From positions 620,001 through 684,000 of the forward strand of contig JARGXX010000116.1 in NCBI GenBank assembly GCA_030374765.1: 64,000 nucleotides of DNA, in the 5' to 3' direction. Position numbers and translations under genes: made by a program. Origin of the DNA: Agarophyton chilense (taxonomy: Eukaryota; Rhodophyta; Florideophyceae; Gracilariales; Gracilariaceae). The notes below the pieces were generated by a model. That model was not told the DNA's origin, made no database searches, and saw only the letters and a list, made by a program, of their open reading frames with translations. Below are positions 7,398-64,000 of this stretch, piece after piece (position 1 is the first letter of the stretch; every line of letters begins with the position of its first letter).

Positions 7398-7483
7398 GTC
7401 GTGCGGATATCAGGTCTGACCTGATCGACATGGGGAACTGGTTGACTCAAAGCGAATGATCAAATTGTTTAGAGACGGGGAGA

Positions 7484-10938: not shown

Positions 10939-11006
10939 AAGACGAGGAAGAACATTCCGAGCCGCGGGTGTCTCGCTTTCCGGTCACTATATATACTTCT
11001 TTCCCA

Positions 11007-18638: not shown

Positions 18639-18650
18639 GTTTAGTTTTTC
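18617..18650 (-). promoter_or_regulatory. E1 gag-pol -1 frameshift site with hairpin
   Basis: On the minus strand the end of gag reads GAAAAAC followed directly by the stop TAA, and the pol frame is -1. Eleven bases past the stop a short hairpin, CTCCC-CTGC-GGGAG (18630-18617), follows. E2 has the same GAAAACTAA junction. The heptamer is not a textbook slippery site because its first base is G. Confidence 0.5.
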
Positions 18651-29137: not shown

Positions 29138-31076
29138 ATGGCTGCAGGAAACACACCCAACCGACCCGACCATAGGACTCTTACGGCACGACAAAGTGCG
29201 ACTACAACGCCGGCGATGTCACCTGACCCTCAGATTGATACCGCTACCGACCGCAGGAGCACAAGGAGCCAGCCGCAAGAAGTACTGACCCCACTTGATA
29301 ACTCTGAAAGGATTTGCCGAGAACCCACAGTGGCAGCGCGTTTACGAGAACGCCTCACCAGGGCCACCTCTAGGCCAGAACACCTCAAGAAGAAACCCCC
29401 CAGACCGAAAAAATTCGAGAAACCCTGCCCGCAGGTCTTGCTGACCTTCTCTGGCCCCGTCTCCGTGAGCTCTGCTCGACCCATGTGGATTCCATGATGG
29501 ACGAGCGACTCGCTACGGCGATCGCTGAACATACGGATTACCTCATCGCGTGAATCGTCCCTAAGGTGTTGGAGTCTGACTTATTCATAGACTCCCTCCT
29601 ACTGGCCATTGAAGGAGCTGTCACCCTCCCGGCAGGCAATTTGGTCCCTAGGACCACCCCACCACAAATTAACCATCCGGTCTCCGTATGGCAACCCCCT
29701 ACCGAACCCCCAGGAGAGGCGGAATTATCCGCCCCTCGCCGGTAATACCATCAGGAAAACCCCATGGTGGGACAATCTAGGAGCAGAAGAGAAGCTCTGC
29801 GTCTAGATGAGAGACAGGTTGCCCATCAGGAGAATCCAAGGGAGGGACAAGCCAGGAGCAGAAGAGAAGCTCCGCGTCTAGAAGAGAGACCGCTTGCCGC
29901 ACCCGACGGATTATACGGGGTACAACGACCTCAGGGCTCCATCGCATCTGATAGAGAAATCAATTCTTTAGGTTCCTACTCCGCTGGAAAGAAGAAAAGA
30001 AGCAACCGCAGGAGAAAGAAGCACAGAAGAAGCAAGAGGAGAGACCATTCGGACACGAGCGATTCCGAGTCGGCCTCAACCGAAACGACCGACTCGGAAG
30101 TGGAAGAGGCTGCCGTTCGAGGCCTCAGACCACTGACAACAACAAACGAGCTTTTCCTTAAGGTTCTAGACTACCGGAATTACCGGCTAGCAGACAGGTC
30201 CGCGAAACATTCTGGTTGGGTGGCTCGCAGAGTCGCCAAATGGGCCAAACGGATGCAAAAAACCATTACGGACAAGTTCTCGGGTTCCGCTCCCATTGCT
30301 GTCCTTAGGTTTCTCAGTTTGTTCCGTACGGCCTGCAATCAGAACGGTGTCCACGAGGGCGCCGCTCTGTACCTTTTCCAATTCTTCCTCACAGGACAGG
30401 TGCGTGACAGAGTGGTTTCGAAGATATCTGGCACAACTGACCTCGTGGATGATCAAGACCGTGAGCTCCTCAGGTCATACCCTCAGGTTGTTCATTACCT
30501 CTTAGAAACTTACGCCACGGATGACGTTATATGGACGCCCACCAGGAAGTAATATCCTTTAGGCAGAGCTCCACCATGACCGAATCGGCTTTCGCGGACG
30601 ACCTACGGAAGAATGCTTACCGATGTGGAAACGAGTTTTCCGAAGGTCGGCTTAAACGTCACTTCACCACGGGATTTCTCCCTGCCATTCGGACACATGT
30701 GCGCAATTACAATACGGAAAACCCACAATACTCCTTCCGAAGGATCGTTACCTACGCCGAGGGTTATGGCAAAACCTACAGCACCTCCAGGCGCAATGAT
30801 GATCTAACCAGAGGACACGCAACTCCATTGCGTAAACCCAACCAAGCCCATTTTGTTAGCTCCACGGAGTCGGACATGGATGCTTCACTCATTCACGCCG
30901 ATTCGGGAGATGTCCTCGCGGTCAATTTCAGTGCTCCTCCGTCCGGGCCCCCATCATACACCTCCCAGGGAACTACAGCGACCACCGGACCACCCACATC
31001 TAATTTTCTCCCGTTCCGCCCCGCAAGGACATTTTCGTTCGCTCCACAAGGGCCTGCTTCTTCTGCCTGTCACTGA
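29138..31076 (+). pseudogene. gag: E4 gag, frameshifted
   Basis: The start is ATG 29138 (MAAGNTPNRPDH). The product continues in three successive frames (29138-29497, 29764-30552, 30531-31076), so at least two indels have occurred. The middle piece has an Arg/Lys/Ser-rich stretch and the capsid-like core (LRFLSLFRTACNQNG, FQFFLTGQVRD). The last piece contains the helical region after it. No clear CCHC knuckle is kept. E5 gag is closely related. Confidence 0.8.
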
Positions 31077-31211
31077 CCCAACCTTGTGACTGTACGAGGT
31101 ATCTGCCTGAGGACGCACGAAAAACCCTCCTAGCCCTAAGTGAAGAGAATTACTGGGTGCAGAGATCCAAAGGAATGAATAACAGGGCACAGCAACGAAC
31201 CACAGGTACCC

Positions 31212-43532: not shown

Positions 43533-43727
43533 CCACTGTGGTCAGCTGCACTGAACAATTCGTTCCTGGAACGTGGAATCGATATCGATACTTGGAACAA
43601 GTGGAATCACTACAGTTGTTGTTTATCAAACCACCTTTGGCAATTTCGGAATTCATAGTGGTTGAACAAGTGGTCGAGAAGTCGAAGACACCATTTGGTT
43701 CGCACCTGGACTCAGGTTTGGTCTAGG

Positions 43728-45882
43728 ATGCCGAAAAGCCGAAGCCAGTCGAGTACTGGTCGCCCCGGTCCTGCGGGACCACCCCCGAAACCGAGGCTCG
43801 CGCCATCTGTTGAATCCCTAGAGCCGCTTTATCGTCAAGCGATGTCGCGCTCTCGCTCGGTGAATGATGAACGAGATCTCTCGGATGTACCGGCCCCTGT
43901 GGCAGCGGCAGTCAAGCCCACCACAGAAGCCGTAGTTGACCCTGAGTTCGTCGGACCTCAAGAAGAGGATGATTTGCGCAGGGAAGTGCGTCGTCCCAAG
44001 TCTGAGTCGAGCCCTTCGCGTGTGCGCATGGTTGCGTTGGAATCGAAGATCGCTGCTCTTATCGCTGATGTCGAAGAATTACGCAGTGCGCATCAAGCAC
44101 TCGTTCGTCAAGACTATAGGAAGCAGGTCTCTGCCACATTGAAAACACTACGTGAGGATTTGAACCATCTACTGGAGAGGTACAGGAATACGCCCGATGC
44201 GCTACCCGGCTTAACCGTGGATGTAGAGGAAGTCCTCACTCGAGTTAACCCTCTTTCAGAACGCCTGGAGGCGGCAGTTCATGCACAGACTGCTGCTAAA
44301 CCAGTCATGCTGGAAGTGGAAGGAGCTTCTTTGAAGGAAGCTCGTTTGAAGAAGTCGAAGTCATGACGTAAGAAGCGGAAGTCCGCACGTGATTCGAGTG
44401 ATGAATTTTCAAGTACGGAGGGTTTCAGTTCCAGTACTGATGATTCTGATGATTCAGATACGTCAGATGATGACGACAGTGATGATGGTCATCGAAGGGC
44501 CCGATCTCGGAAGAAGAACACCTCTTCGTGGTTAATGAGAAAAAAAGGCTCACCTTACAGAGGATTGAAGGTGCTCCCGTGCACGAATCCGCTTTATCGG
44601 AAGGTCCTAAATTACAGGTACTACCGTCTGAAGGTGAAGAATAAGAAGCGCTCAGGACGCGAAACCGCGAAGGTGAAGGGTCACATCAAACGATTGAAGA
44701 TCGGCCTTCATGATTTAACATTTGATGGGAAAACCCCCCATTCTCGTTATCGAGTTTCTCACTGGATTCGTTGCCGAAGCAGACACTCTAGAGATGAGTG
44801 AACCACAGACATTTGTGTCTTTACCACACATCCTGAAGCGTTTTTCTTTAGAGCAATATCGTTCCGTGTGCGGATCATTGACAGCCGATGAAGGCGGCGT
44901 TACCTCATGGCCAGAGGCGGTGCAGTATTTGCTGCGCAGTTACGCGACTTCAAACGCGATACGTCAGGCGATCCTGGACCTAAGGTATGTGACCCAAAAG
45001 CCTGAGCAGGGCGAAGCTGAGTACAGCTCAAGGCTTGACAAAGCTTCAGTCCGCTGTGGAAAAGTACACTCGACGGAGGACAAGATTACCTTGTGCATCG
45101 ACGGGCTGGACCCGAGCATCAAGTCGTTGGTAGCTCGATATCGAGAGAAGCATGGAAGTGTCTCCTTTTTGGAGTTAGTTCAGTTTGCGAAAGCTGAAGG
45201 AGACGCGGCCAGAGTGCGTGGAAGCCCGAGTCGTTCAGTGGCTTTTGGAACCTCAATAGGTAAGGAGAAGATCTCCGCCAGAGTTAATCAGCGCAGCAAA
45301 CTGCTACATCTAGAATCTCCAGTGCACTCACGAGATTCGTCGTTGGCACCAAAAGGGAGTGACTCGCATGAGGAGGCGGTCCATTTAATGGAATATACGG
45401 ACTCTTCTGTACCTACAGTGGATCTCCCACACTCGGAGTCTCAGTACGAGAAAGCCCTAATGGCTATGGAGGGCCGTCGCCCTATGTACCGTTCCTACAC
45501 GGTGCCACTACAAGGAGGTTTTCAGAACGGGAAACCCGGATGGGTGGATACTCGCACGGCATACCGTTCACAACCTATGTTGACCAACCGTCGTGACGGT
45601 TTGATATGTTATTCATGTTATGGAAAACACCGTTTGATTGCAGAATGCACGCTTCCTGCAAAGGATCTGAGTCGTATCATGACGAATTATGAAGCACTCT
45701 CTGAAGAGGAAAGGAGCCGCTTACCGGCGGGCATGTATTGGAAAGCCAAAACTTGGTTTTCTCAGACACCAATGCGCCGGAAGGACAAGCCGGTTGCTCC
45801 GAATTCTGAAGTGGTACAACCCGGAACCCCGGTAGGAAGAGACGCCTTTGAGGCGAATAAGCCGGTGCAACCGGAAAACTAA
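43728..45882 (+). pseudogene. gag: E2 gag
   Basis: It starts at ATG 43728 (MPKSRSQSSTGRPGPAG). The N-terminal part is Pro/Arg-rich with a coiled coil (LESKIAALIADVEELRSAHQ) as in E1. TGA 44364-44366 interrupts it, followed in the same frame by a Ser/Asp-rich linker and the core. A one-base change in a run of Cs near 44734-44739 shifts the frame into 44722-45882, where the core continues (LVIEFLTGFVAEADTLEM). A zinc knuckle of variant spacing, CYSCYGKHRLIAEC, is near the end. Gag ends in TAA directly at the pol junction. Confidence 0.85.
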
Positions 45883-45932
45883 GTGAGGGAGCCCCTAGGG
45901 GGTCGGCACTAGTCGATCCCGTAGTGCTGACC
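45873..45932 (+). promoter_or_regulatory. E2 gag-pol -1 frameshift site with stem-loop
   Basis: Gag ends GGAAAAC-TAA and the pol frame is -1 and open across the stop. Eighteen bases after the stop, GGTCGGCACTA (45901-45911) can pair with TAGTGCTGACC (45922-45932), ten Watson-Crick pairs and one G-U, with a 10-base loop. Position and strength fit a programmed frameshift stimulator. Confidence 0.55.
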
Positions 45933-48900
45933 AGGGAGAGCTCGCCTCCCTGCTCCCGCGCTTGGAAGCCCAAGATTTTCTTGAGGCCTCAGAAATTTCC
46001 GCCGTACGGAATCAATCCGCCGGACGGAAAGCGAGTACAGTTTGACTGTGAGTTACATCGTCCTTGGAGACGTTATACTTGCCCGTCAAAATGGAAAAGT
46101 TACTTCATGGTAGTGTCTAAAAGAAACTATAAGGTCTATGCCGACATCGGCTCTGACAGGAATCTGTTATCTCGTCGATTGACTATCCTGGACACAGGTG
46201 CTGGTCCGAACTTTACACGGGAATCGGAGCTCGCTCCTCCTGACTTAGAACGTATTCGATACGGTCCTTTACCGGACATCCGGGATGCCAACAAAAATGC
46301 TATGAAGACACTGGGAACAGTTCGACTCGTGGTGCGTTTGGCACGCTTTGTAGTCCTAGTCGACTTCATCGCCTGTAAGACGTTAGCTGCACAAGTGGTA
46401 CTGGGATGTAATTATTGCGACAAGTTTGTCGAAGCCATTCGCCCGCGAAGAAAACTAGTGGAACTAGATGATGGATCAATGGTACCAATTGTTCGCAAGC
46501 CAATGCATCGTTGCTCTGAAGCACCTCCACTTCCACCATCTATGGAATACGGGAAATCCTGAGGACGTGTCTCGCCGAGGATTCGAGTAGCGAAGAGTGC
46601 CATGCTGAAGGCGCAAACCCAAACTTGGGTTCAAGTAAGAACAGAACGACACGGACTCGTCGTAATTCAACCGAATAATCGGATGTACGAATCCCGTGGA
46701 TTGCTAGTGGCTGACGGCATTGTTCAGGTTGATCCTGGTAGCCCCTTTTGGATACTAGTGAGTAACTTCACCGATAACGATTATCAGATACCGAAGAATC
46801 AGGTTGTTGCAACAGCTTTGCCTCATCCCACAGTGGTGGTCCCTACTCATATTTCTACTGCAGAAGTATTGGGATTAACCCATGTCGGTGACACAGACGA
46901 AGAACTGCAAACTCCCTCTGGAGATCAATTGCAAACGGCCAAGGATCCAGAGAGCCTGGTCGATGAGCTAGACTTAGCACATGTGTCGGAACACTACAGA
47001 ACGAAGATCAGGTCTATGCTGAAGAAGTATACCTCCATGTGGAGCGGAAAACTAGGAGAGATCTCTGCTACGGAACGCCATATTGATTTGGTCCCAGGGT
47101 CACGACCCATCTCCCAACCACCCTACAAAGCGAGACCGCTAACTCGCCAAATCGAGGAGGAGAATGTCAGCAAAGTGCTGGAAGAAGGAGTAACCGAAGC
47201 AGCTCAGTCTGCTTGGGCCTCACCGGTGGGGCTGGTTCCAAAACCTGATGGTTCTTTTCGATTCTGTATCGATTATCGAAAACTGAACGCAGTTACAGTT
47301 CACGATACATACCCGTTGCCTCGAATGGACGAATGCATTGACAGCTTAGGAGAAGCGAACGTGTTCACCACGTTGGACGCCAACTCTGGCTATTGGCAGG
47401 TGCCTGTAGCGGAAGAAGACCAAGATAAAACCGCATTTGCGTGTCACGCCGGTCTCTATCGGTTCATAAGGATGCCCTTTAGCTTAACGAATGCACCGGC
47501 TACTTTCCAGCGTACTCTGGACATCTTGCTATCAAGATACAATTGGAAGACTTGTTTAGTCTATTTGGACGATGTGATCATCTTTTCCCAGGATGTGGAA
47601 AGCCAATTACGGCATGTCGAGGAGAATCTCAAAGCACTACAGAGCGCAGGTATCCCCTTGAAGTTCAAGAGATGCGAATGGTTCGCTAGCACCGTCCGGT
47701 ACTTAGGACATGTGATCAAGCCGGGACAGCTTGCCATTCAAGAGGCACAAACAGCGGCTCTCCACGAAGTACAACCTCCATCGACACAGAAGCAATTGCG
47801 TTCTTTCCTCGGCTTGTGCAACATCTACCGACGATTCGTGCCGCGATACTCGCATATAGCGGCACTGCTCAACGCAAAGCTGCGTAAAGGACAACCAGTA
47901 CAGCTGGAACAATTCAGACAAGCTGAAGTGGAAGCGTTAGACGCGCTGAAGACAAAGATTATTACATCCCCAGTCTTGGCGCTGCCCATCCCCAACCTGC
48001 CATACTCAGTGGATACCGACTCTAGCGAGTAGCAAGTAGGGTGTGCCCTTTTTCAAACACACCCTGATTGTAAACGCAAACCCATTGGTTACTGATCAAG
48101 ATCGCTGACCGCAGCTGAGAAGAAGTATTCAGTTTCAGAAAAGGAATGCCTTGTAGTCGTTTGGGCTCTAACCACACTGCGACCGTATCTCCAGGGAGAA
48201 CGTTTTGCCGTCAATACGGATCATTCGTTTCTACGATGGTTACTGTCCATTACACACCCGTCTGGTCGTCTCACAAGATGGCTCTTACGCTTTTCTGAAT
48301 TCAATTTCGAAGTGAAGTATAAGAAGGGATTGGCCAATGTCCAAGCTGACGAGCTATCGCGACTCAAAACACTGGGCGAAACCCAAGGCGAAATCCATGA
48401 AGAGATACCTTGCTTCTACATGGAGACCCATTCACCATCTTTTGAAGAAGAGGAACAAGAGACCCTTGATGATTATTCGGATGCAGACCCGTTCCTTGCA
48501 TTAGCAGACACTGACCCTTCAGTTCAACTCGAGCGAATCTCATGCACTGAGCTCCTCAATGAGCAACACGCCGATACGTTTTGTGCGTCGATACGCTCTC
48601 GTCTTAACGGGGGGGAGGAGCTCCCCTTTTCACTCGATTCACGAGGAAAAATATTAAGACATGTCGAAAAGCATGATCAAATCGTGATTCCACACGTCTT
48701 GAAGAGTCGAGTACTCCATCTGGCATACTGCAGCAGGCTGTCTGGTCATCCAGGAGGAACGAAGTTGTTCATGACTCTAAGAAGAGATTTTTACTGGCCT
48801 AATTTGGCAATGGACTGCCATGCTACAGTGAGATTGTGTACTACATGTGCGAAGAATTGCGTGAAGCTTTACAGGAAGCGGAAACCGATGACTTTAATCC

Positions 48901-49970
48901 AGGCGAAAGCGCCTTTAAAATACGTTAGAATCGACATCCCAGGGGAATTGATTCGCTCAAGGCGAGGTTATCGCTACCTATTGGTAATCACCGACCGCTT
49001 CTCGAAGCTAGTGCAAACTGTGCCGCTCAAGCGGATAACCGCAAGCGTAATCGCACAGGCTTTTGTCAAACACTGGGTATTTAGATACGGACCACCAGAA
49101 GCTCTGTTATCAGATGATGGGAAGCAATTCGTTGCGAAGTTCTTTCAGAATGTTTGCCGCATTATGGACATTCGAAAAGTGTTTACCACGACCTATCATC
49201 CGCAATGAAACGGTCAGGTGGAGCGTTTTAACCGCACGCTGATGGCAGCATCACGACACTACATCGCGGACCACCCGAAAGAATGGGACATGTTTACAGA
49301 TACTCTGTGCTACGCGTACAATACGCAAGTGCAAACCTCTACAAATAGGGCACCGTTTGACCTCGTGCTCTCACGTAACCCTCCGGCTTTACCGGTTGCG
49401 CTCGACGACAAGGCAGAATTTGAAGCGCCGACCCCGGCTAAGTACCATCTGAAATGGAGGAATGACCTGAAGGCCAGAGCGGAAGAAGCCGCTAAGGAGT
49501 TTTCAAAGACGCAAGCTCGCTATAAGCGAAACTATGACGCCAGAAGGCGAAGAGGAAATCCGGCAATCCGAGTAGAAGGTCACTTCTTCGTGCGAGTTGA
49601 AAGACTGGACAAACAGGAAGAATCTCGTCATAAGTTGTGGAAGATAGCGGCTGGAACATTCAAAGTGGTGTACCTTGATTAAGACACAGTGGTCATCAAG
49701 ACAGGTGAGGACGTTGAACGTGTATCGCGCGATGGCGTTGAAGTCGCGCCTGACCCGCAAGTGGAAGTCCAGGTATCTGGTAGAACTAAGGAGGCAAGTG
49801 CGACGGAACGTCAAGGCAACAGCCCAAGTGACTCTGGGGAGAGTGAACCGCCACCAATGGCTCCAGCGGAGGAGAAGCTCCTGATCTCCCACCGCCGGCG
49901 GTTGCGTACGCCAATCACGGACAGCTTCCGAAGTATCGGGATATGTCCCGTGGCACGCGCACACCCGTAA
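45876..49970 (+). pseudogene. pol: E2 pol with five in-frame stops
   Basis: About 4.1 kb stay in one frame with no frameshift. The frame is broken by TGA 46560, TAG 48030, TGA 48093, TGA 49206 and TAA 49680. The order is protease (ILDTGAGPNFTRE), reverse transcriptase (GVTEAAQSAWASPVGLV, FTTLDANSGYWQV, YLDDVIIFS), RNase H (VDTDSSE, NTDHSFLRWLL), integrase finger (HPGGTKLFMTL to CTTCAKN) and core with catalytic residues kept (VRIDIPGEL, LLSDDGKQF, GQVERFNRTL). Similarity to E1 pol is strong throughout. A frame change near 49950 separates it from the chromodomain. Confidence 0.88.
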
Positions 49971-50701
49971 GTACAGAAATGGAACCTGAAAGCAGGAAAG
50001 ATGTTTTGGACTTTGGCCCCAAAAACTTGGAAACGAGTGCACGCGAAAACGCGCCGTTGCTGCTTCAGGCTAAACCGTCAGGTGAAGCCCCACTTGCTGT
50101 TCCGCCGATATCGGCTCCCATCCCTCGTGGGAAGGAAGAAGAAGAGGTACCGCCTCCTTTCGTGGTGCGAGCACCATCGTCCACCGAACAGCGGTCAGAA
50201 TCGGATAAACCGAAGGAAGTTCGTCAACGAATGGAATTGAAAAGTAGTAAGAAGTACGCTTCTATGGAACCTGGAAAACAGTATAGCTCTTTATCTGAGA
50301 AAGGTTCTCAAGGAATGAGTACACTGCCCCTGCGGGCAGAACGACAGTTAGTGGACGAGCGAACGCTTAGCGACGCGGAGACTGCTAACACAGAGACGCT
50401 TCGGTCAGCCCCAAGGCATTTCAAACCTGTTAACAGGAGTCTCGAGCCAACAGCGAAAGAATTGGGAAACGCCCAGGAATATGTTATGGATCGCATATGT
50501 GAACATGGCGAGCATGAACATACCAGAGAATTACTGTATCGAGTCCGTTGGTACGGTTTTCCTCCGGAAGCGGATACGTGGGAACCTATGGCTCATATCC
50601 CCCGTTCGCAACTCATGCGATATCATCGACGCATGCGATTACCACTCCCCAGGGAGATCAACTCCTCGGTAGTCGGGCTCATGGGCATATCCCATTTCTA
50701 A
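49943..50701 (+). pseudogene. E2 pol tail with chromodomain
   Basis: The frame carries a Pro/Glu/Ser-rich spacer and then a chromodomain, EYVMDRICEHGEHEH and LLYRVRWYGFPPEADTWEPM, with its aromatic residues kept. It ends at TAA 50701. It is in a different frame from pol, so an indel has separated the two. Confidence 0.8.
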
Positions 50702-51033: not shown

Positions 51034-52533
51034 TCAAAGAGACGTTCGAGCACGCAGATTCGCAAGAAGCTGTGCGCGATCATCCTCAACTTGGTCCACG
51101 GGAAAGCCCGCATCTAAGAAGAACTGCCTCAGCGGATCCAAGTCTGGATCTTCGACCGTCACTGCACTCGGTTGTTGGGTAAACCGACGAGAGTACTCTT
51201 GAGCAATTCCCGCCGCTGCGGATTGATCGATGGGAGTCGCTACGCCTGCCCGCTCTGGCTCGTCCTCGTAACCGAGTTCGGCCTCAGCTCCCGGCGCTTC
51301 CTCATACGGTTCCTCTCCGTTCTCGGATGGAGTAGCATCGTACACGTATCCAGTAAGCTGGTTCGGTGACATGTCATGCTGGTTCTCCCGAAGAAAGCGA
51401 GCCTGCTCGGAGGTGATTAACTGGCGCGTCCAGGGGTCGTACCAAACGAAATCTCCAGCACTTGCTGTTCGTCCAGGAGAATAGTCGTGGTGTCTTGCAC
51501 GGGTTCCGCGAGCGGATTGGTCAGCTGGCACTCCAGACCAATCGACACTGTCGATCAAATCCACAAGGTGGAGGAAGTCGGCATGGTTCGCACGGGACCC
51601 CAGGACAAGGGAAAGATCGAGTTCTCTCGCATACTTTCGCGCTGTGGGCGACATTTACAAAACTCTAAAGGTATCATAAGCATCCGACAGTAGGAAGACG
51701 GCCATCTTGGCGATAAACTCGGTATAAACCACCGTCCAATATCCCGAGAACGGGTCGTTAACCAACGCGGACCCGATGTAGGAGATCGCCGGTGGGAGCT
51801 CCACAGGGCAACCACGAGGACCCTCGATCGCTGCCCAATGCTCCGGAATACCGATGAAGTGCCCGAAGCGCGCGTTCCGCCGGATGCGGTCAATCTCGAT
51901 CATTTGATACGGCACCAAATAGCCCAAACGTGATCGAGTACGACGTTCCCAACGGGGATAGTCCCAATAGGGAATGTCATGCTTTCGAAGGAAGCAGAAC
52001 TCCGCACGGAAAAGAGGTTGCTGAAAGCAGAGAGCTGCATCGCGCACACCGCGCACACCGCGCCAACTGCTAATATCGACTTCAACGAGTGTCTCGATAT
52101 ACGAGTAACCTTCACCGTCGGTACGGGCTTTCCAGATATCTAGTACCCAGTCCTGCAGGAAAAGAACCGTACTGATGAATCGGTGCAGACGCTGGTAAAT
52201 CAGCTTGGTGAACCGCGTACGGGCTTCGGACAAGGTTTCCGTTGAATATCGCGCAATCGCGTTGTCTGGCAAAGCAATATGGCTCGCCCAGTCGTCGCTA
52301 TGAATCGCGTGTTCCGGAATACCGTCAGGGAAGTACCCACCGTGTACATAATGTTGTATCAACGCGTCATCGTGGATAGCAACTGGATCAAACCAGGGCG
52401 CTTGCGCGAAAAGTTCAACGTTGTCGAGAGGATCTCATCCATAGAAATCCGCAGGGTGCGGGTAGCTCCGCTGAGCACGACGAGAAGGAGCTCGAATCAC
52501 ACCTGCAGAGGCGACGTAAGCCGCGTTCGGCAT
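51034..52533 (-). pseudogene. E2 antisense ORF, homologous to that of E1
   Basis: A minus-strand frame of 500 codons runs from ATG 52533 (open further upstream) to TAG 51034, broken only by TGA 52437-52435 and TAA 51657-51655, with no frameshift. I do not recognise the family. It aligns with the E1 antisense product along its length: APWFDPVAIHDDALI, then WERRTRSRLGYLVP, RNARFGHF, ELPPAISYIGS, DPFSGYW, and near the end LRQFFLDAGFPV against VRQGLVNAGIPI. The C-terminal part is acidic. At its second stop E1 has a Tyr codon, and at E1's first stop it has Glu, so the ancestor lacked these stops. No transmembrane segment, zinc motif or catalytic motif stands out. Confidence 0.75.
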
Positions 52534-52640: not shown

Positions 52641-53157
52641 CACGTCAGTGTTCTCGGAATGCTAGTTCAGAGGTCAAAAAAGGACGATTTGAAATGACCG
52701 AAAAACCCCTGAATTTATCCAAATGTGGAGGTGTTAATTTCCGAAAATATTTTCATTGGTTCATTAGTGCTAGTTTGTATGGGAAGGAAAACTAGCACAT
52801 ATCTGCAGTTTTTCTAGTTTTGATGGAGGTAAAACTAGCGTGAATCTTTCTGTCGCCGCAGTTTAAAGGTAAGAGTAGAGAAGTGGTGCAGGCGCAGATT
52901 CAATCTTTGTGCGCTCTAAATTGACAGATTAGTACAAACAACCGGTCCCAAAATGGACCTCAAAATAGAAATTGAACATTTAGTACCATCCATATCAATC
53001 GCAATAGAATCGCAGCCCGACCTGGCAGACCTCACGTGCCTTGCATTCTATATTATTCTCGACCGCCCTCCCCTATCACGTGCCCTGTGTGCGCCATACT
53101 CTCTCTCCGTCTACGCCCCTTACCAACTTCTTTCCCACCACCTCTCCTCCACCCACC
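52641..53157. other. AT-rich leader before the transposase, with two small hairpins
   Basis: GTGCTAGTTT (52767-52776) pairs with AAACTAGCAC (52789-52798), and a second, related hairpin with CTAGTTTT/AAAACTAG follows near 52817-52840. No gene is recognised. A frame from ATG 52953 runs into the pyrimidine-rich region without features. The left boundary of the next transposon probably lies here, but I could not fix it. Confidence 0.4.
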
Positions 53158-56100
53158 ATGCCTTCCTGCTGCTTCAACGGTTGCTCCTTCTTCGCCCGAG
53201 AAATCCCCGCCCTCCAGCGGCACCAGAGAAGGTGCCCTCATCGCCTCTCAGCCAACAAGCGCTTTCTCTCCCCTGGCGGAAATTAACCCAACTTCCCCCC
53301 CCGCACAAAACGCCACAAGTCCACCTCACAACTCCCCCCTCATCCTCCTCCCTCACATCGCCCTTCCGACAACGTCCCTCTCGCACACCATGACTCCTAT
53401 CTCCAAGACCAGCTCTCTCTCTCCCTCCACACCCAGGACGCCATCCACGTCGCCACTGCCCCTCTCGGTTCCCCCTCTTCTCTCGCTCTCTCCCCCCTCC
53501 CTCCTTCCACTCCCCCCCTCGACAACCCCCACCTGGAGAAAATGGTCCTCTACATCTCCTCCATCGCCTCCAAGCTTGGACAACGAAAGGCTGACGAACT
53601 CATCACTCTTCTTAATGATCCCCACTTCTCCGAATCAACATTCCGGAACTCAGTCTCCTCCGCAAAGCAATGCCTCGAACTCCAGGCAGACCTCTTCCAC
53701 CAGAGAATCAGGTCCATTCGTTTCGCCCCCTCGACCATCTTCGATCCCCACAAACGCTTCTCCGCAACCCTCTTCCAGAAAGACGCAATCCATGTCCTCA
53801 AACAACAGCTCGCCCTCGCACACTTCAAGAACACCTTTTTTCACCCCATCTCTCAAACATCCGCCTCCGGCTCCCCCGCTTTCGCACACCCCATTGCAGC
53901 CACCCTCGGCTCAAAAGTCGTCCCCTCACTCAAGACCGCCATCATGCAGTCCACAAAAGATAACATCGTCTGGCATCTCCCTCACTCCACCGGTATCGAC
54001 TCCTTCATCGGCCTCGTCCAAATCTACTCCGACAAGTCCTCTACCTCTCTCAAATATTCTTCTATCACCTCCTACCCCCTCCACATCACCCTTCTCAACT
54101 TCTGCGACTCCTTTCGCCACAAATGCATCTCCGAAAATCTCACACTCCTCGGCTATCTTCCCACCTCCTTCACCCCAATCACTCCTTCTCCAGATGCAGA
54201 TATCATCACTCATTCCTCCTCGATCCCCCGCCAAACAAAAATGGAACTCATACAGCAGACCATCTCCTCCCTCCTTCAACCTTTCTTCTTTTCCGCCCTC
54301 CCCGGTTTCCCCTTCCGCGACGCATACGGCGTTCTTCGTCAATGCCAACCCATCATCGCCAGCTACTGCGCAGACATTCCCGAGGCAAAGGATATTCTCG
54401 CCATCTCCCACGGCCCCCGCCCCCAGCACCCCTGCCACAGATGCTCTGTCCCTCGCTCACAACTCCACCAACACTCTCACGCCCATCCCCCTGGATCTCT
54501 TCCCCTCACCCTTGCAGCCCGCAACAAAGACTTCTCCCTCCTCAAGGACTCCGAAGCAGCTCTCCTCGCCCGCAAGCCAAGAGTCTCGCGCAACTTCAAG
54601 GAACAAGCTCTCCAAGCACTCCACTCCCTCTCCCTCGCAAAATACCCCTCCCTATTCGAGTCTTACCCCCTTTTCAACATCACCCCCCTCCTCACCCCAT
54701 ACAACATCTTCCCCTTCGAACCCCTCCACAAGTTCCACCTCGGCGTTTCCAAACTCATCAAGCTCGCCGCCATCGAACGTCTCAGATCAGAACACCTCCT
54801 CACCACCATCAGCTCCACAAACTCCCGCCGTTCCTTCCACTCCGTCCGCACCTCCATCCTCAAGCACTCCAACTTCATCCTTACCGCCATCGAAAATCAT
54901 TCCCCAGCTACCGGCCTCCACAACGACTTCTCTACTTCCGAAAGCGGGCAGTCCCTCAACGTCTTCTTCACAACTGACGGCGTCCGCGGCATGCTAGAAG
55001 CAAAAGACTACCGCGCCCTCGACATGGTCTTCCCCTTCTTCATCGGCGCCTTCTTCGACCGCTGCTGTGACGAAGCCAATTCCGCTCCCATCACAACTGT
55101 CTTCTCCAAGTACAAAGACCTCCTCCTCACCTCCATGTGCTACAACTCTGTCCCCGAATGGACCACTTCTCATCTTGCCAAACTCGCCTCCCAAATCCAT
55201 TCCTTCAAGCACAGAGCTGTCGATGTTCTCGGTCCATACCATACCTCCAACCTTGGCACCCTCAACTCCCACCTTCTCGATCACATCGTAGACGACATTA
55301 GGCGCTTTGGGGGTCTCCACTTCAACGATGCAGGCATTTTCGAACAAGCCCATACCCTCTTCAAAGCACATTACTCCCGAACCTCCAAGCGCAGACCCAC
55401 CCCGCACAACGAAACCATCCGTGCCATCGAACGCTCCGATGCCGTCAACAATTGGATTTCTCTCTCCGCTGATCTTTCCGTCACCTCATCCTCCCATGCC
55501 CCTCCTCCTCCCTTCCAATCCCGCAAACCAGGTTTCGTCCGTGATGGCAAGCACACCTCCTTTTCCAATCTCATCACCGCTCACAAATTTCTTCGAGCAA
55601 ACCCCCACTCAACAATCTCTTCCCTTCAGAACCTCTTCTCCCCAGACACTATCGTCATCATCTCACAGATTGGAACCCTCGCACTCCCCTCCTTCGTCAC
55701 ACTCACACTCGAAACAGTAGCTCTCAACCAGGACTCCACCACTTTCCGCCAAACCCGTCTCACATTCGTCAATTCCGCATACGTCGTCGGCGGCTTCACC
55801 CCAACCCTAGACGACTACATCGCCGATCGAAACGAGCTCGCCGTCAAAGATCCCCCTCTCCCACTCATTCAACGTATCTTCGCTGCTCCCTCCTTCGGTC
55901 CCTCTAAAACCCCAAAGCTCTCCCACATCCTCGTTGCCGGTTCCAGCTTCTCCAACCCCACTCCCACCGCCTGGGTCTACAAGCTCAACTCTCTTCTTCG
56001 CTTCACCACCCCTTCTTCCCCTTCCACTCATAACGAGTTCGCCTTCGTTCAGTTCCTCGAACTCGTTCCACCCCAGGATCAAGTCGATGTCTCTCTCAAT

Positions 56101-56424
56101 TGCATCTACCTCCGATGGGCAACAGACGACGAACAAAACCACACCGCCCACTCCCTTCCTATCTCAAACACTTCCAACTCCGACAACGTCTCCCCTTGGT
56201 TCGGCCTCGTACCACCCTCTTCCATTCTCGGCCCCGTTCATGTACTTCGCCAAAACTACCCCGCACCCCCTTTCACCCCTCGATTGCACTGGCGCTTCCA
56301 TCGCTTTTACCTCAACATATTCTACCGAGACCCAACTGCCAAGCCCTACTTCTCCAACACCACCACTGGTGGCACAACACCACCACTCGGTGGCACCCAT
56401 AATAATACCTCCCAAGGCACATGA
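53158..56424 (+). CDS. Plavaka/EnSpm-like transposase with N-terminal zinc finger
   Basis: One frame runs 1088 codons from ATG 53158 to TGA 56424, with a single TAA at 53284-53286; from ATG 53542 an uninterrupted 960-residue product is possible. The start, MPSCCFNGCSFFAREIPALQ followed by RHQRRCPH, is a C2H2-type finger as found at the head of Plavaka transposases. The core has the family's marks: an N-terminal helical pair, IYSDKSST, then LTLLGYLPTS, a Cys/His stretch (HPCHRCSVPRSQLH), FEPLHKFHLGVSKL, and near the end HLLDHIVDDIRRFGGLHF with FEQAHTLFKAHY, matching the DUF4218-like pattern. Codons end overwhelmingly in C. The stop after the finger may be decay, or the finger part may be spliced on; I found no convincing splice sites. 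The catalytic acids are not assigned. Confidence 0.7.
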
Positions 56425-56511
56425 TCCAATAAAATAGTCACCGCTGCTTTTCTTCCATAGCCGACCCCCATCTTGCTCCACCTCCTTACCCCCTTATCCC
56501 CCCGTACATTA

Positions 56512-59166
56512 TCACTTTCCCACTCCTTGCCTACTCCCCAACGCTAAGCGCTTGAACCGTGGTTCTTCTGGTCTACATGACGCTATATAGCAATCTAACA
56601 CCGCTCCAAGTCTTCTCGTGAGATTCTCCATGAAAAACTCCTCCCTTATAGCCAGATAGGTTTTCTCTCTCGACGGTATCCATAGCCCAACCGTCGCGAT
56701 TCTCTCCTTATTCCCACTCACATCTCTACGATTCCCTCCACAGAACCCATCATTCTCAAACTCCTCAGCATACTCATCCTTCACCATGTTCCAGGCAACC
56801 CTCAATATGTCCTCAACAGCCAGTGGCAGAAACCTCCCAAACAGCGTCGAGAACAAAAATTGCCTTTGACCTCCCCGCCCAACGTCTCTATCCATTGTGG
56901 TCACCACACATCCAATCCATGCATCAAGTCGCGCAAGATGCATCACCGTCCCATCCACATACTGCCTTTCTCCATTTCTGTGACTCTCTACCGCGTAGCC
57001 CATAAACTCCTCCAACACTTTCAACGACACCTGATTTCGAAAATACATATCTGCCTCACCAAAGTCCTCCAAGTTCTCAGACACCTTCGATCCAGAATAA
57101 GTAATATCTTCAATCGCACTCGTTCTCCACGCACACAGCTTACCTCTCCAATCCTCCCCCGACCCCATCAACTTCTCCTGCGCCTCCTCAATCTGCTTCT
57201 TCAACTCCGCCCAAAGATCCGTCCCTTCAGTCACCTTAGCTCGTTTCGCGATCAAATCATATCCAAGCATGGAAAACAGCTTATCACGCGCTGCTCGCTT
57301 CCGCACCGCAACCACATCGCTCAATGCTTGCTTCATCTTCTGTCTCAAGCACCGATCCGCACTTACATTTTCCAGGCACTCCTCTCTCCTCCCCGCTTCC
57401 CTTATCGACTCCCATTTCTCTCCCATTAACTCAGTCTCTACCATGTGCTTCAACAAGAAATGGCTCCCGCTCTCTGTCGACGGCGTATACGGTCTCATGT
57501 CATATGCAACCTCAATTGGACATCTCGGAACCATTTCCTTCTCTCCCACCACAAACATACTTTCCTCCCTACTCTCCCCAACCGCCTCACTTCTATTCTT
57601 CCAGCTTCGACCCACATTCTCGGTGTTGAAGCAAAGTTCCGATGCCTCCAGTTTTGCACAATGAAGAATCCTATCATACACACAACGTGCAAATCCATAA
57701 AAGCATTCCTGCACTCCAATGTCATACTTTCGTCGCCGCGTCACGCCTCCCTCCCCCCTCCCTTCCCCAGCGATTCTACTTTTCGACGCCTCCCTCAAAC
57801 TCTCAATTAGCACATTCTGCTGCTTCATTTCCTCCCTCGCCCGATCCAGCTCCGTGTGGGTCATTTTCAAACTCACCATCACACTGTAGCTGTCTTCCTT
57901 CATACGTCCCATTTGTCCCTTCAACACATTTATCTTCTCAATTAGCATCGACCGCGGCAACAAACCTATGTCATCATCATTTGCTTCATCTTCCACTATT
58001 CGGACGGCGTTCTCCACGACATTTAAATTCGCATTCTCCCCGTTATCATTATTCCTTGTGAATACAATGTTTCTCCTTACTCGCATACCTTCCGGCGTCC
58101 TTCGCCTTGCGTTCACCTCAAACCCTTCAACTCCCAAACCCACCCCTCTCCTCGGTGGCAAACGCTCGACATCTTCTCCCTGATGAGAAAGAACTGCTGC
58201 TCTTCCATCGCCTTCCTCCCCTGAGCCACGTGTTCTCCCTCCAGCAAACCCCCTTCTCCCCCCCTCACTCACATGCACTTCTCTGCTTTCCCTTTCGTCT
58301 ATCGCTCTTCTTTCTGTAACTCGAACACTCCCCATTCTTTCCCTTGCACGCTCTCTCTTTTCTTCCACGTAATTCAAGTTCGCCCCCTCCCATCTTTCCG
58401 CCTGTTCCCCCGTGGTAACTCCAACACTCTCTCCTTCTGTTCTCTCTCGAACGACTCTTGCGCCCGCGATTAGACCACTACTGGGTCCACCTATTCTACC
58501 CTCCCCACCACGGCTACTCTCTATTCTCCCTTTCTGTATCTCATCATCACCGTCCTCTTCCCTCATACCCGTAAACGATGCCCCTGCTTCTTCAACGCCT
58601 CTGAGGCGGGATCCACGTTCTCCGATCATTCTCTCTCACTCCTTACGCCCCTTCGTCCTCTCATTCGGAATCTCTTCACCTCCTTCAGGTGCAGAGCATG
58701 GATTTACCGGCTCCACATCAGCTGAAGACGGGAGTACAGCATTTAGAGTCCGCTCGGACGCATCCCCTCTCTTTGTCCTCCCTGGAGCTCTGCTCGCCCT
58801 CCCCCGCAATCCACTTCTAGGTACACGCGTGCAGTTGCTTCGCACGCCATCCCGTTTTCCATCGCCGCTCCACACCGTCTCTCCCGTAGGCGACGTGATT
58901 TGCTACGTAGGCGACGTGATTTGCTCCGCACTCTCCTCCGTCATCGTCTCTTTTGCGCGAACAGCCTTTCCTTTGCCCCCACTCGCCTCTCCTTCCCCAC
59001 CATCTTGCCTTGATCTAACTCTCAGGCGCACGCCTCCCTTTTCTCCACTTGCGCCCTGGAGCCTACGCCACTTGTCCCTTCCGCCCTCCGCATCCCCTCC
59101 ATGCCGCCGTGATTTTGTACCGCGCCCGCTAGTGTTCTCGCTTCTCGATTTGCGCTTCGGAGCCAT
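56512..59166 (-). CDS. Accessory coiled-coil protein of the transposon, unknown family
   Basis: The frame from ATG 58629 encodes 705 residues without a stop. The same frame continues upstream to ATG 59166 (MAPKRKSRSE), broken by TAG 58903 and TGA 58636, so the original protein was probably 884 residues. The N-terminal part is Arg/Gly/Glu-rich and looks disordered and nuclear (KRKSR, RRRTPEG). In the middle is a coiled coil (LIEKINVLKGQMGRM, LDRAREEMKQQNVLIESLR). The C-terminal 350 residues are helical with no family I recognise. The TAG arises at the junction of a 21-bp in-frame tandem duplication. CACTA elements usually encode a second protein that binds terminal repeats; by position this could be it, which is inference. 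Codons are G/A-rich. Confidence 0.55.
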
Positions 59167-59490
59167 GGTTGAAGAGAGAGAGAGCGATCGTGGTATGGTC
59201 TTCCACGCGTTGCAATGCGATGGATGGGAGAGAAGCTTCGAAACATTCTGCTTCCAAAAATATACCTCCACCCTCTTCGTGTTCTCAGAAAACCCCCAAA
59301 CTTTTCAGATATTTTAAATACGCGCTCGAACGCACCAGATATTGGGAAAGTATTCTCCTTCGGTGTGAATGACTTTCCTTTAGCATATGTACTACGTCAC
59401 GCTTTGACGTTATATGTAGCGACAAACATAGTAAAAGCCCACAATATCTGGTACACTACAATGAAGTATAGTAGCAAAAGCGATGCACTT

Positions 59491-62400
59491 TTAATCGATT
59501 ACTATGACTGGCGTGTTATTCATACTCCAGATATACTCTGTCCCATAATCCGCGAACAGCTCCTCTCCTATTTCTATATCTCGAATTGCTTGCACAGAAA
59601 GCAATCTATAGTTTCTCAACTGAAATGGGGTCCGCCCCGTCCCGGGAGTTCTGATGACCCGAACATATGCAGTTCGGCATCTCATTAACCCGTCTTCAAC
59701 CGCATCCCTGTCCCTATCCCCTTCCACATACTTGGGGTCGTTAATTGTTCCCCCCAAGCAAAATGGAGCAGGGACAATCCACACCGGAATAAGAGACACC
59801 CCACTAATTCTTCCTGGTAGCTTGTGAAACACTTCCCCTCGGACGCTTATCTCCATCGCGTACTGCCGAAAACGATCAGCAGTCGCTTTCAATAGCCCCC
59901 CTCCGTATGCCTTATGAACTTACTTCCGCTTTGAAAGATTATGGTACACCAAAGTCCCGTAAAAATAACAAACAGTCTCACCTTGTATCACCCGGCGTGT
60001 TGTGTACACACCAACTCCAGCATTCGGGTGCCTTATCGTCGACTTTGCAATCCGACAACCACATACTGTCGCCTCCACTGCCAGAATAGCATTCCAATCC
60101 AACAGTGACATCTTTCCTTGAAAACTTCTTGGCCACTCATACAGCGCCTGCCGTTGCCCAATCTCCGGTATATTCTTATCCTGCCACATGGAGGAGAGAA
60201 AATCCACGATATGGGGTGGAAACATCTGATGCTCGGGAAATCCGGTAGGTGTTTTCCAGGACTTCGAACGCTTTATGACGACGTCCGGAAACAAGCATGT
60301 CACTCGAGTCACAGCGTTCCGAACATCTTGCGTTATATGAATGTCCGTCTCGTTGTTCCGCATGCATGACGCAAATTTCACTGTAGCGGCGTGCTTCGCA
60401 TGAGCAAAGCACTGCGGATCTGGCTCACACCCTAGAAACTGACGGAGCTTTTCCAGTTCCATGCATGCCATGGCCGTTGAAAATGTTCCGGCGAAGAGGT
60501 CCACCACTATGTCTCCCGGATGAGAAAACCTGCTGATGAGCTCCTTCAGCAAAGCGCATGACTTCTGTTCCGCCCGCACTTTCTGATACGTAACTGCTCT
60601 TTTGGCATTCTTCCTTCTCCATAGAAGTGTTTCACCATTCGACATGGGAGGCACTTGGTCAATCACGCTATGGTAACCCGGATATCGCGATGGTACATAG
60701 CTGAAGTTCTCATAGTTCACCATGCCATGTTGTTCGGCGTAGGACAACCCGCTGCGAACTCCATGAATGGCGTACTCTGTTCCGGGAAACAGGGAGCACG
60801 AACTACGTCCGGGATTACGCATCGGATTGCCTTGAGAGCGAATGAAGTGCAGCTGGCCCTTGTCCACGACAAACGACCTGCTCTTCTGTCCATTCTCATT
60901 CTTTGCACCAATTCGACCCAACACTTCTTTCCATTCGTTCACCTGCTCAATCGCGCAGAATATAACGAAATGCCCTCCCGGACACAGAAGTTTAGAGATG
61001 AGCTTCGCCGTCTTCACCATGTCTTGCCGGTTAAGAACGTCGTACCAGCTGTTTTTCCTGTTCTTCTTCGCACGTATATTATACGGCGGGTCCGTGAGAA
61101 CCAACTGCACTTTCCCTATCGGAGAGACCCCATTGCTGCGCAATGTCTCGTCAATCTCCACCAGGTTCTCGAAAGTACAATTGTACATTCGACAGTGCTT
61201 ATCCATCTCCGACTCGCACTTTTGGAGAGACATTATATCATCCAGAGAGGTAAGGTCGTGAGGCGGCAGAATATCCACCGACTCAGATTCGACCGACCTT
61301 GGTCCAGCTGTGGAAGAATGCTGACCAACACCCATGTTCTCTTCCTCATTCCCGGTCCCACCCTCCACTCCCTCTCCACCCTCCACCGCCGGAGCCTCCG
61401 AATCTTTCTCAGGGGGTACAACTTCTATCTCGTCTTCTTCCATAACCATAGTAGGTTCCGCCTTTGTCGCAGCCACCACTTCCACCTCCACACTCCCTCG
61501 CAGCTTTAGTGGCGATATGTATTCCGAGATGGTAGAGATAAGAGAGTTCGAGAAGCAGTCGAATCTCTCCGCAAACACTCTAGGCAAAGTGTATGTAAAC
61601 GGTTTTAGAACGTCCCATCTTTCCGGAGCTGATATAGAGTAAAGCTGCTCATTCACCACCACTTTGTGCAGGTCAGCGAGAAACTCTTTGGCCAACATAC
61701 GAAGTGGAGTATCAACGTACTCCGGCAGGTTCCACGCCCATGGGACGACATCCTCCTCCAATAAAGTACGGTTTCTACCAGGAAGGAGTCGTTGGGCCAT
61801 GTCCTTGTGAGAGAACCCATCCTTTCTGTTTCCGATTGCCTGGAACTGCATATCAGAATATCGTAGATGGATAAAGGGCAAAACCATGAATTCCACGCCA
61901 GGGAATCCCAAATACTGGGAGAAGCTGTCCCACGCGTTATTGACGAGCTGCACACCAAAGCCCATACGCTGAGCTACTGGTTTGTCATAAAATGCCACCT
62001 TCGAAAATGGCGTATCGTAGGTTCTGTACCGCTTTCTTCGCTTACGGGAGACTCTTCTCTTCTCCATAGAGACCGACTGAATACAAATGAGGAACAGCAA
62101 CCGGTGGAACATTGTCGGGAAGTCGGTCGCGAATGGAGCCCGGCTTTTGCTCGCCATCTTTCGGGTTGTATCCAGACCTTTGAAGAACTCTGTCAAAGTG
62201 ACATTCTTCGGGATGCCTTTGAACTCCACCGCCTCGTACGCGTTCCAAAAGTCCCTCACGCGCCTATCTGGGTCCCCATCCCTTATATCCAGCAACCTCG
62301 CCGAGAAATAAATCTGACAGTTCGAGCCCCTCATTCCTACAACTCGGAGCTCATTTTCTGTGTAATTGGTGTGGTCGGGACCTAGGAGAGTATAAAAAAA

Positions 62401-62622
62401 CTTCGCGGTCTCCGGTAGGATGTGGTGATTGGCAATTGCGAAATCGATGAATACAGTGTGCCCCACTTTTCGCGGCTCATCTTCCTCCCGCCTCGTTAAT
62501 GCGTACCGATCACGCAAATCCAGACACGCCCTGATAAGTTCATCCCCCGTACCAAACAGTTTACCCATTTCGAAGGTGTCTGCCGCAGGCGATGAAGAAG
62601 TTCTCGTGGGTTCTGGAGCCAT
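59491..62622 (-). CDS. DNA N6-adenine methyltransferase fused to a SET domain
   Basis: From ATG 62622 the frame covers 1043 codons to a stop at 59491, with one TAA at 59922-59920. Residues 1-400 are unrecognised, and an acidic linker of about 100 residues follows. The methyltransferase has DPPY (motif IV) at 511-514 and DLFAGTFSTAMA (motif I, cofactor binding) at about 708, in the beta-class order; DPPY points to adenine-N6 methylation of DNA. From about 868 a SET domain begins (GVGVYTTRRVIQGETVCYFYG) and ends GEELFADYGTEY near 1030; the usual NHSC reads TINDPKY. SET domains methylate lysines, mostly on histones. The TAA lies in a likely 61-nt intron: donor GTAAGT at 59923 and acceptor TTTTCGGCAG ending at 59863 flank it, but splicing there shifts the frame by one base, so this copy needs one extra G or is broken. 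An enzyme with both activities would act in the nucleus. Confidence 0.8.
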
Positions 62623-62795
62623 TTATGTACATGTTCAAACAACCTCACGGGCGGTCGTCACGAGAGCCTGAGTAAAAGAGAGCAGCGGGTGCGGCTGGGG
62701 GCGGCTGGGTACGGAAAAATTGTGAGTACAGTTGAGGAGCGCGCACGGAAGAACGGTTGTTGCGGAACGACTTCGCAGCTATCCTGGTTGCATTC
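62623..62795. other. Upstream region of the methyltransferase-SET gene
   Basis: This short stretch should contain the minus-strand promoter, between the ATG at 62622 and the first hairpin of the array. It is GC-rich, and no TATA-like motif stands out. Confidence 0.4.
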
Positions 62796-64000
62796 TGTCG
62801 GCCGTCAGAGGTGCGCTCCGACTTCATCGGGGGTCCCGATGAAGTCCCCACGCACCTCTGTCGGCCGACATAATACATATAATTTTGTAATTTTTAGGAC
62901 GCCCAGGTGTACACGGTGCATTCTGTCGGCCGACAGAGGTGCGCTCCAACTTCATTGGGGGTCCCGATGAAGTCCCCGCGCACCTCTGTCGGCCGACATA
63001 ATACATATAATTTTGGTATTTTTGGAATGCTCAGGTGTACACGGTGCACTCTGTCGGCCGACAGAGGTGCGCTCCGACATCATTGGGGGTCCCGATGAAG
63101 TCCCCGCGCACCTCTGTCGGCCGACATAATACATATAATTTTGTAATTTTTGGAACGCCCAGGTGTACACGGTGCACTCTGTCGGCCGACATAATACATA
63201 TAATTTTGTAATTTTTGGAACGCCCAGGTGTACACGGTGCCTTCTGTCGGCCGACAGAGGTGCGCGGGGACTTCATCGGGACCCCCGATGAAGTCGGAGC
63301 GCACCTCTGTCGGCCGACAGTCGACCAACATCTCAGAAACGCATCATGCGTGATGTTATGGCGTATTTGTCGGCCGACAGGGGTGCCGTGCGACTTCATC
63401 GGTCCACCGATGAAGTCGCAGCACACCCCTGGCGGCCCACAAATGGCCCGAATGGTGTCCCTACAACATGCTAGTGAATTGTCGGCCGACAGGGGTGTGC
63501 TGCGACTTCATCGGTGGACCGATGAAGTCGCAAGGCACCCCTGTCGGCCGATAAATACGCCATAACATCACGCATGATGCGTTCCTGAGATGTTGGTCGA
63601 CTGTCGGCAGACAGAGGTGCGCTCCGACTTCATCGGGGGTCCTGATGAAGTCCCCGCGGCTCTCTGTCGGCCGACAGAGTGCACCGTGTACACCTGAGCT
63701 TTCCAAAAATTACAAAATTATATGTATTTTGTCGGCCGACAGAGGTGCGCGGGGACTTCATCGGGACCCCCGATGAAGTCGGAGCGCACCTCTGTCGGCC
63801 GACAGAGTGCACCGTGTACACCCGAACGTTCCAAGAATTACAAAATTATATGTATTATGTCGGCCGACAGAGTGCACCGTGTACACCTGGGCGTTCCAAA
63901 AATTACAAAATTATACGTCACCGTGTACACCTGAGCGTTCTAAAAATTACAAAATTATATGTATTATGTCGGCCGACAGAGTGCACCGTGTACACCTGGG
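62796..64000. repeat. Array of long hairpins with TGTCGGCCGACA palindromes, dyad-symmetric
   Basis: Eight hairpins of about 75 bp (near 62796, 62923, 63051, 63243, 63368, 63480, 63601 and 63730) have arms bounded by TGTCGGCCGACA and a core around GACTTCATCGG/CCGATGAAGTC. Lone 12-bp palindromes lie at about 63179, 63859 and 63967. The hairpins are separated by an AT-rich spacer (with ACATATAATTTTGTAATTTT and AGGTGTACACGGTGCAC) that points one way before 63243 and the other way after 63670. A second spacer type at 63318-63369 recurs inverted at 63551-63604. The whole is therefore a palindrome of palindromes centred near 63460, and it runs off the window end. No coding potential is credible. Confidence 0.9.

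Follow-up and report, generated by a model that had tools for sequence, protein, structure and literature searches.

A DNA methyltransferase-SET fusion gene carried as cargo by a giant Plavaka transposon of the red alga Agarophyton chilense

We analyzed a stretch of 64,000 nucleotides from the red alga Agarophyton chilense (contig JARGXX010000116.1, positions 620,001 to 684,000; hereafter the window) and found a gene that joins a beta-class DNA methyltransferase and a SET domain in one protein. A Plavaka DNA transposon of 19.3 kb carries this gene as cargo. The fusion is real, and chance co-occurrence of the two domains is excluded by its presence at 51 or more places in the genome, by two-domain proteins from other sources and by a further family, co-linear with the first, that this genome also contains.

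The fusion gene occupies 59488..62622 on the reverse strand and was delineated from its reading frame, Pfam matches and copies elsewhere in the genome. An N-terminal part without assigned domain (approximately residues 1-480) is followed by the methyltransferase domain (60397..61110, reverse strand; residues 505-742; N6_N4_Mtase, E 7e-17), with DPPY at residues 511-514 and motif I, DLFAGTFST, at residue 708. The SET domain (59542..60018, reverse strand; residues 869-1027) comes last, with the motifs GxG, YxGTLVY, INDxxY and GEELxxDY. When the whole window frame was searched against Pfam, the SET match scored 22.0 bits (E 2e-4), below the cut-off of 22.4, and the intact copy L002 passed this cut-off with 23.4 bits (E 8e-5). 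A single in-frame stop at codon 901 (59920..59922, reverse strand) interrupts the window copy, which therefore cannot make the fusion protein. GTAAGT is seen by eye at this stop, and an intron or two separate proteins were considered; a broken copy is the simpler reading, since the frame runs on before and after the stop and 11 of the 20 copies that we read pass this point without interruption. The preliminary description of this DNA, which placed a DPPY beta-class methyltransferase and a SET domain in one frame, is thus right about the protein, as judged from Pfam and the other copies, and wrong about the window's own copy.

A search for copies with the same domain order, suggested in that description, returned at least 51 places in the genome (52 rows, two of which are halves of one place). 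This number is a lower bound, as 51 of the 225 first-look candidates were scored and a second search revealed further places. We read 20 copies, the window copy included; these were the best-scoring of the 52 rows, so the sample is biased towards intact copies. Eleven are open through both domains (1,036–1,043 codons) and nine carry one or two stops, the codon-901 stop of the window copy being absent from the other 19.

The gene had been placed in a transposon cluster, and this cluster could be delimited to one element with a transposase and a palindrome array. The element, 19,278 bp long, covers 52643..64000 of the window and extends for another 7.9 kb to window-equivalent position 71920. Its ends were set by comparison with copies on contigs C92 and C12 (left end from both, right end from C92), which are about 97% identical to the window element in long blocks and unrelated beyond the ends; the C92 copy measures 18,601 bp. 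The left terminal inverted repeat of 23 bp (CGTCAGTGTTCTCGGAATGCTAG) lies at 52643..52665 on the forward strand; the matching right-hand repeat has its last base at 71920, beyond the window. A 2-bp target-site duplication, CA, is found at 52641..52642 and again after 71920. The inverted ends read CGTC(A/T)GTGTTCTCGGAATGCTAG. Allowing up to two mismatches, the 23-bp end occurs 205 times in forward and 200 times in reverse orientation in the 79.8-Mb genome, compared to 0 and 0 for a reversed-pattern control. From the part of these places that was listed, 10 end pairs were picked, mostly around fusion genes. The 2-bp flanks match in nine of them (the exception is on C13), or in 8/9 when two pairs representing one duplicated site are counted once; with the window and C92 copies, the duplication is found at 10 of 11 independent sites. 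Duplications of 2-3 bp are characteristic of Plavaka, whose termini are given as TGT..ACA (PlavakaA) or CATCA..TGATG (PlavakaB) in excerpts of Kojima 2025 (PMC12730594). The termini here begin with CGTC(A/T)G, one base off CATCA at the left end, and may represent a red-algal variant or a third lineage.

From the left end, the gene order is transposase (forward), open reading frame (ORF) X (reverse), fusion gene (reverse), palindrome array, partner gene (forward) and smaller ORFs up to the right end. More specifically, the Plavaka transposase frame (53287..56424, forward strand; 1045 amino acids) matches PF18759 with E 1.5e-15 and 57.7 bits against a cut-off of 26.3; it is open over 1137 amino acids in a number of other copies and has 45 rows in the genome. 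ORF X (56512..58629, reverse strand) encodes 705 amino acids here and up to 930-960 in other copies, without a Pfam match over cut-off, and lies downstream of the fusion gene on the same strand in at least 47 of the 51 places. A ketopantoate-reductase-like assignment for the ORF at 69801-70739 was dropped, its single match being ApbA_C at E 0.02, below cut-off. Two side observations concern the element family. Many short elements (approximately 3-6 kb) seem from a coordinate list to be bounded by the same 23-bp ends and are probably non-autonomous Plavaka derivatives. In addition, the Plavaka copies at C2:40670-59136 and C12:654623-673556 share the same flanks in opposite orientation, consistent with a single insertion within a segment that was duplicated, or with a haplotype duplicate retained in the assembly.

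The fusion gene and the divergent partner gene are separated by a tandem palindrome array at 62789..64000, continuing to about 64110 outside the window. The window copy has 16 TGTCGGCCGACA cores, partly inside imperfect 75-bp palindromes; the folding of the 319 bases at 63242-63560 is much stronger than that of shuffled sequences (z -25). At least one core is present in 19 of the 20 copies, the window copy included (1 to 16 cores in the 1.5 kb read), and none in the 57.7 kb of flank examined. The partner gene lies beyond the window at window-equivalent 64366-68082 (L025:366-4079, forward strand) with a frame of 1,239 amino acids and no known domain; it has 37 rows in the genome, and partner frames measure 1,239-1,335 amino acids. 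By eye, one stretch of the partner protein (V-D-I ... D-G-x-H-R) looks like ParB, and another at the C-terminus (H-T-D ... GDVFHAGA ... R) resembles 2-oxoglutarate (2OG)-dependent dioxygenases; both are conserved between the two families. Searches of Pfam, PHROGs and PDB gave no significant ParB match for the partner, phages and plasmids searched with the family-2 stretch gave none either, and no profile matched a 2OG-Fe(II) dioxygenase significantly. Both domain names are unsupported by any library and are used here as leads only.

The pairing occurs outside this genome as well. A protein search with the full-length fusion as query gave no relative among the 7,999 scored candidates sharing most words. 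With the methyltransferase domain as query, 371 candidates yielded 18 proteins, of which three are from Gracilariopsis chorda; the SET domain identified three, two of them from G. chorda. Proteins P0007, P0009 and P0010 match both Pfam domains over their cut-offs and P0005 of G. chorda matches both with SET below cut-off, placing the fusion in G. chorda and among metagenome proteins. A tree of nine rows joins P0019, P0020 and P0005 to the Plavaka fusion (96/96) and leaves the second family outside. A scan of genome contigs gave one short match within an unrelated Variovorax frame, which was rejected.

The second family (family 2) was found in the A. chilense genome using PF01555 and P0007 as queries. 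Of 151 candidates, 95 were scored; 31 places were picked by match span from the resulting 95 rows. Seven partial or diverged rows were left out (C4:1099454, C22:1638204, C19:1297, C75:2160, C17:107489, C105:1415985 and C2:1238515), and those remaining were taken as the transposon family. The fusion proteins of the two families are 35% identical over 1,063 amino acids, co-linear through both domains. The partner proteins are 37% identical over 1,246 amino acids without composition correction, and 32% identical over 657 amino acids (E 2e-73) with correction and a shorter frame. In the element types that were read through, both families have the fusion divergent from the partner relative across a tandem array with palindromes. 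The pairing is not confined to the Plavaka transposon, as members of the second family are located near contig ends.

What the two domains do can be narrowed by comparison with known enzymes. DPPY is unchanged in all 20 fusion copies read and, as motif IV, precedes motif I, as in the beta class. When a profile of eight rows, two of which (P0015 and P0018) are only 23-28% alike, was compared to solved structures, the nearest were enzymes producing N6-methyladenine (6mA), namely DpnA (8e-30), CcrM (2e-21), MboIIA (6e-20) and RsrI (5e-18), and the N4-cytosine enzymes matched less well (8s9m, 1e-12; PvuII, 2e-9). A single methyltransferase protein gave the same order (DpnA, 9e-10; CcrM, 2e-5; PvuII, 3e-3), and PHROG_67 strongly matches the methyltransferase part (2e-26). 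The fusion methyltransferase is most likely an N6-adenine enzyme; sequence by itself does not decide between 6mA and N4-methylcytosine. The Pfam profile search of the fusion protein gave no ParB match. Site avoidance was tried as a guide to the target motif with 17 motifs and nothing was drawn from it; GATC, for example, occurs at 1.82/kb in the element and 3.59/kb in the 52.6 kb to its left, uncorrected for composition. In the SET domain, the motifs GxG, YxG and ELxxDY are present, and an alignment of five diverged members has 26 invariant columns, including GxG, G-x-L-x-Y, an IN pair and the E...DY end. The SET profile matches the lysine methyltransferases KMT5A/SETD8 (2e-6) and KMT2A (2e-5) through two weak stretches taken jointly, neither of which matches alone.

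We favor, at a probability of about 0.5, that the fusion gene is an accessory cargo of a giant cut-and-paste Plavaka transposon and encodes a bifunctional writer by which the element sets its own chromatin state. The writer would consist of the N-terminal region of unknown fold, the DPPY beta-class methyltransferase and the C-terminal SET domain, and would work together with the divergently transcribed partner, the palindrome array between the two genes being a likely loading or control site. Recruited to the DNA of the element itself, the two proteins would deposit 6mA there, and the SET domain may methylate lysine on nearby chromatin or on the transposase protein. The resulting chromatin state could allow the element to escape or tune host silencing and transposition. 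A distant two-gene module near contig ends, found with a helicase, suggests that the module may serve different kinds of selfish or subtelomeric DNA.

Several observations weigh against this reading. Motif I is FAGTF and not FxGxG in the transposon family and in most relatives covering the motif (family 2 has FAGTG), and 4 of the 20 copies read carry a further change there. NHSCxPN is not matched in the SET domain: the H of the classic NHSC is replaced, the five aligned members reading IND or INE, for which reason we speak of a SET domain and not of a proven methyltransferase. Nothing ties the palindromes to the fusion or the partner protein. The transposase is in its expected place on the opposite strand in at least 30 of the 51 fusion places, as counted from the best candidates scored. 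The counts of substitutions point in the same direction. For the 11 open copies, the ratio of nonsynonymous to synonymous differences (pN/pS) is 0.74, with a bootstrap range of 0.48-1.32 (methyltransferase 0.43, SET 0.99), so that purifying selection is not evident among them from these counts; the nine copies with stops, at 0.62 (methyltransferase 0.54, SET 0.56), are not above the open ones. Compared to L002, five of the 11 open copies (L006, L007, L011, L013 and L019) are changed in at least one of seven motifs, and open copy L010 is without seven residues at the start of SET. L003, L004, L005 and L008 have no change in the seven motifs relative to this reference.

These counts are also what would be expected if the genes were passengers, captured by a giant transposon without a role for it, with the open copies merely young. 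The family is indeed young: the median pairwise divergence across the 20 copies is 1.2% (L005 and L010 are identical at the compared positions), many copies carry stops, and the open copies are no more constrained than those with stops. Overall pN/pS across the 20 copies is 0.64 (methyltransferase 0.50, SET 0.68), and many same-ended elements appear short. However, a second context preserves the fusion and partner in co-linear form at 35-37% identity, and other sources have the fusion too; for this, both domains must have been under long-term selection at some point in the lineage. We consider a passenger origin rather unlikely on balance. Recent selection is not shown by the copies, and the case for constraint rests on co-linear conservation between the two families and with other sources.

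The SET domain might instead be a binding or structural part and not a lysine methyltransferase. The altered NHSC and the weak Pfam score are consistent with this, and some open copies are changed in or beside YxG and DY. Yet the 26 columns held invariant over diverged members and the profile match to active enzymes speak for catalysis, and make a non-enzymatic SET domain a doubtful alternative to the lysine methyltransferase of the favored reading.

The location of family 2 raises the question of ownership. Twenty-four of its places are on contigs known to be longer than 150 kb; all 24 read inward, 19 within 15 kb of the contig end and 24 within 70 kb. Four places on contigs of unread length also read inward within 70 kb of the start, and three on short contigs read outward from the nearer end. 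Because the copies are nearly identical, these places are not independent events. Counted by eye, family 2 is open over at least 1,130 amino acids in 21 of the 31 places. A helicase gene lies 939-944 bp downstream of the fusion in 23 of the 31 places. The contig-end element was read in C95:1-17900 (L061, L081, L082) and C116:1-16000 (L059, L060), with the same order on both; its helicase gene has approximately 1,880 codons, with DEAD and Helicase_C domains and an OrsD-type N-terminus. At the start of C95, 2.1 kb of AAACCCCTA-type telomere repeat lies outside the element and is followed by 773-bp repeats. Next come a partner-gene relative (C95:3855-7859, reverse strand), an array of 773-bp repeats in which a 16-bp palindrome recurs roughly once in each unit, the family-2 fusion (C95:11632-15054, forward strand; 1,141-amino-acid frame) and the DEAD/Helicase_C gene from C95:15928 onward. 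Telomere repeat adjoins the family-2 unit at this one of the 11 contig ends read and was not found at the other 10; a pattern search also detected it at the end of C21, with two family-2 places lying 43 and 69 kb away. A position near chromosome ends fits these sequences best, although it is not shown for every end and assembly breaks inside repeats are possible. As a side observation, telomere-type repeats at the contig start recur 5-12 kb inside as interstitial tracts in C1:60-12511 and C12:502-9993.

The module may accordingly belong to the host's chromosome ends, where it would maintain the ends or silence subtelomeres alongside a helicase, much as in Y' or telomere-linked helicase elements; Plavaka would then have captured its copy later. 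The largely open family 2, its inward orientation close to contig ends, the helicase neighbor and the telomere repeats at the C95 start and C21 end all favor such an origin. It is countered by the 10 ends read that are devoid of telomere repeat and by C1, C2, C12 and C28, which among the pattern matches listed bear the repeat at an end, with no family-2 row among the 95 of 151 candidates scored. Moreover, since the Plavaka copy clusters in the tree with proteins of G. chorda and family 2 branches outside, capture by Plavaka, if any, was not recent. We regard chromosome-end ownership as improbable, more so than the two preceding alternatives. Descent from an integrated giant virus, suggested by the large intronless genes and bacterial-type methyltransferase, is highly improbable given the terminal inverted repeats, 2-bp duplications and Plavaka transposase, and IMG/VR scans with the methyltransferase, partner and SET (not the transposase or ORF X) gave only a 38-residue match inside an ordinary methylase.

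Beyond the favored writer, a bolder proposal can be made, which we advance as speculative. The fused 6mA and lysine methyltransferase and a partner with ParB-like and dioxygenase-like stretches might form a portable two-gene system that loads on palindrome arrays and places paired marks on DNA and protein. Red-algal giant transposons and chromosome-end elements might share it to set their own chromatin, in which case it would be the first known direct physical coupling of both marks in one mobile-element protein.

The rest of the window contains other repeats and a likely host gene. Sequences at 14106-20152, 29746-32183 and 43659-50701 are from long terminal repeat retrotransposons; reverse transcriptase, RNase H and integrase were identified by Pfam at 14109-17231 and the others by eye. 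A DDE_Tnp_1_7 transposase fragment lies at 7420-8721, and the likely host gene, at 3167-6787, is a CobW-type GTPase frame whose N-terminus is extended over a long stretch. Frames at 10941-12671 and 51655-52434 are similar by eye and perhaps represent another repeat family; 10941-11822 and 51658-52434 have no Pfam match.

In the best-studied eukaryotes, a DNA base mark and a lysine mark need separate enzymes and readers. If active, the protein described here would tie the two together. Dozens of copies with built-in controls (broken copies, and array-bearing versus array-less copies) make transposon self-marking directly testable by long-read sequencing, and the contig-end family would connect 6mA with subtelomeres in a lineage in which DNA methylation has, to our knowledge, received little study. 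Family 2 resembles telomere-linked helicases and Y' elements in its contig-end location with a DEAD/Helicase_C protein; we know of none of these with a methyltransferase-SET gene. Petroll in 2025 is said to have described a proliferation of giant Plavaka elements in Bostrychia.

The type of element is already known, and the fused SET and the contig-end family are the parts without a match in our literature searches, which covered open-licence papers only. The one-protein pairing, which the preliminary description did not recall from earlier work, was not found there, and its halves are separately in print for transposons; the available excerpts of PMC12633428 and PMC12502185 name neither a fused SET nor a contig-end family. 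Eukaryotic transposons with DNA methyltransferases, which the same description took as known, are documented in excerpts of PMC12477816 and PMC5890265. For example, DIRS retrotransposons carry a Dam-like adenine methyltransferase, and LINE, DIRS and Gypsy elements carry DNMT (PMC5890265, excerpts); they share with our element a DNA methyltransferase of their own, whereas they are retrotransposons and the term 'SET domain' is absent from PMC5890265. HarbingerS and MuDR transposons of Phytophthora carry SET genes (Kojima, as cited in excerpts of PMC12730594) and are likewise SET-encoding DNA transposons, but of other superfamilies and with no DNA methyltransferase mentioned in these excerpts. 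Giant algal transposons encode a ParB-like and N4C/N6A methyltransferase gene, as in the 21.5-kb Sola1-1_Ec32 of Ectocarpus, and self-marking by such methyltransferases has already been proposed, with red and green algal cases credited to two other works (PMC12477816, excerpts). Sola1-1_Ec32 is thus alike in being a giant algal DNA transposon with a bacterial-type DNA methyltransferase and proposed self-marking; it differs in combining ParB with the methyltransferase, whereas our element joins its methyltransferase to SET and encodes the partner in a gene of its own. Fungal Plavaka transposons that carry TET/JBP (PMC12730594, excerpts) share the 2-3 bp duplications and a DNA-modifying accessory enzyme, theirs being a dioxygenase in place of a methyltransferase-SET protein.

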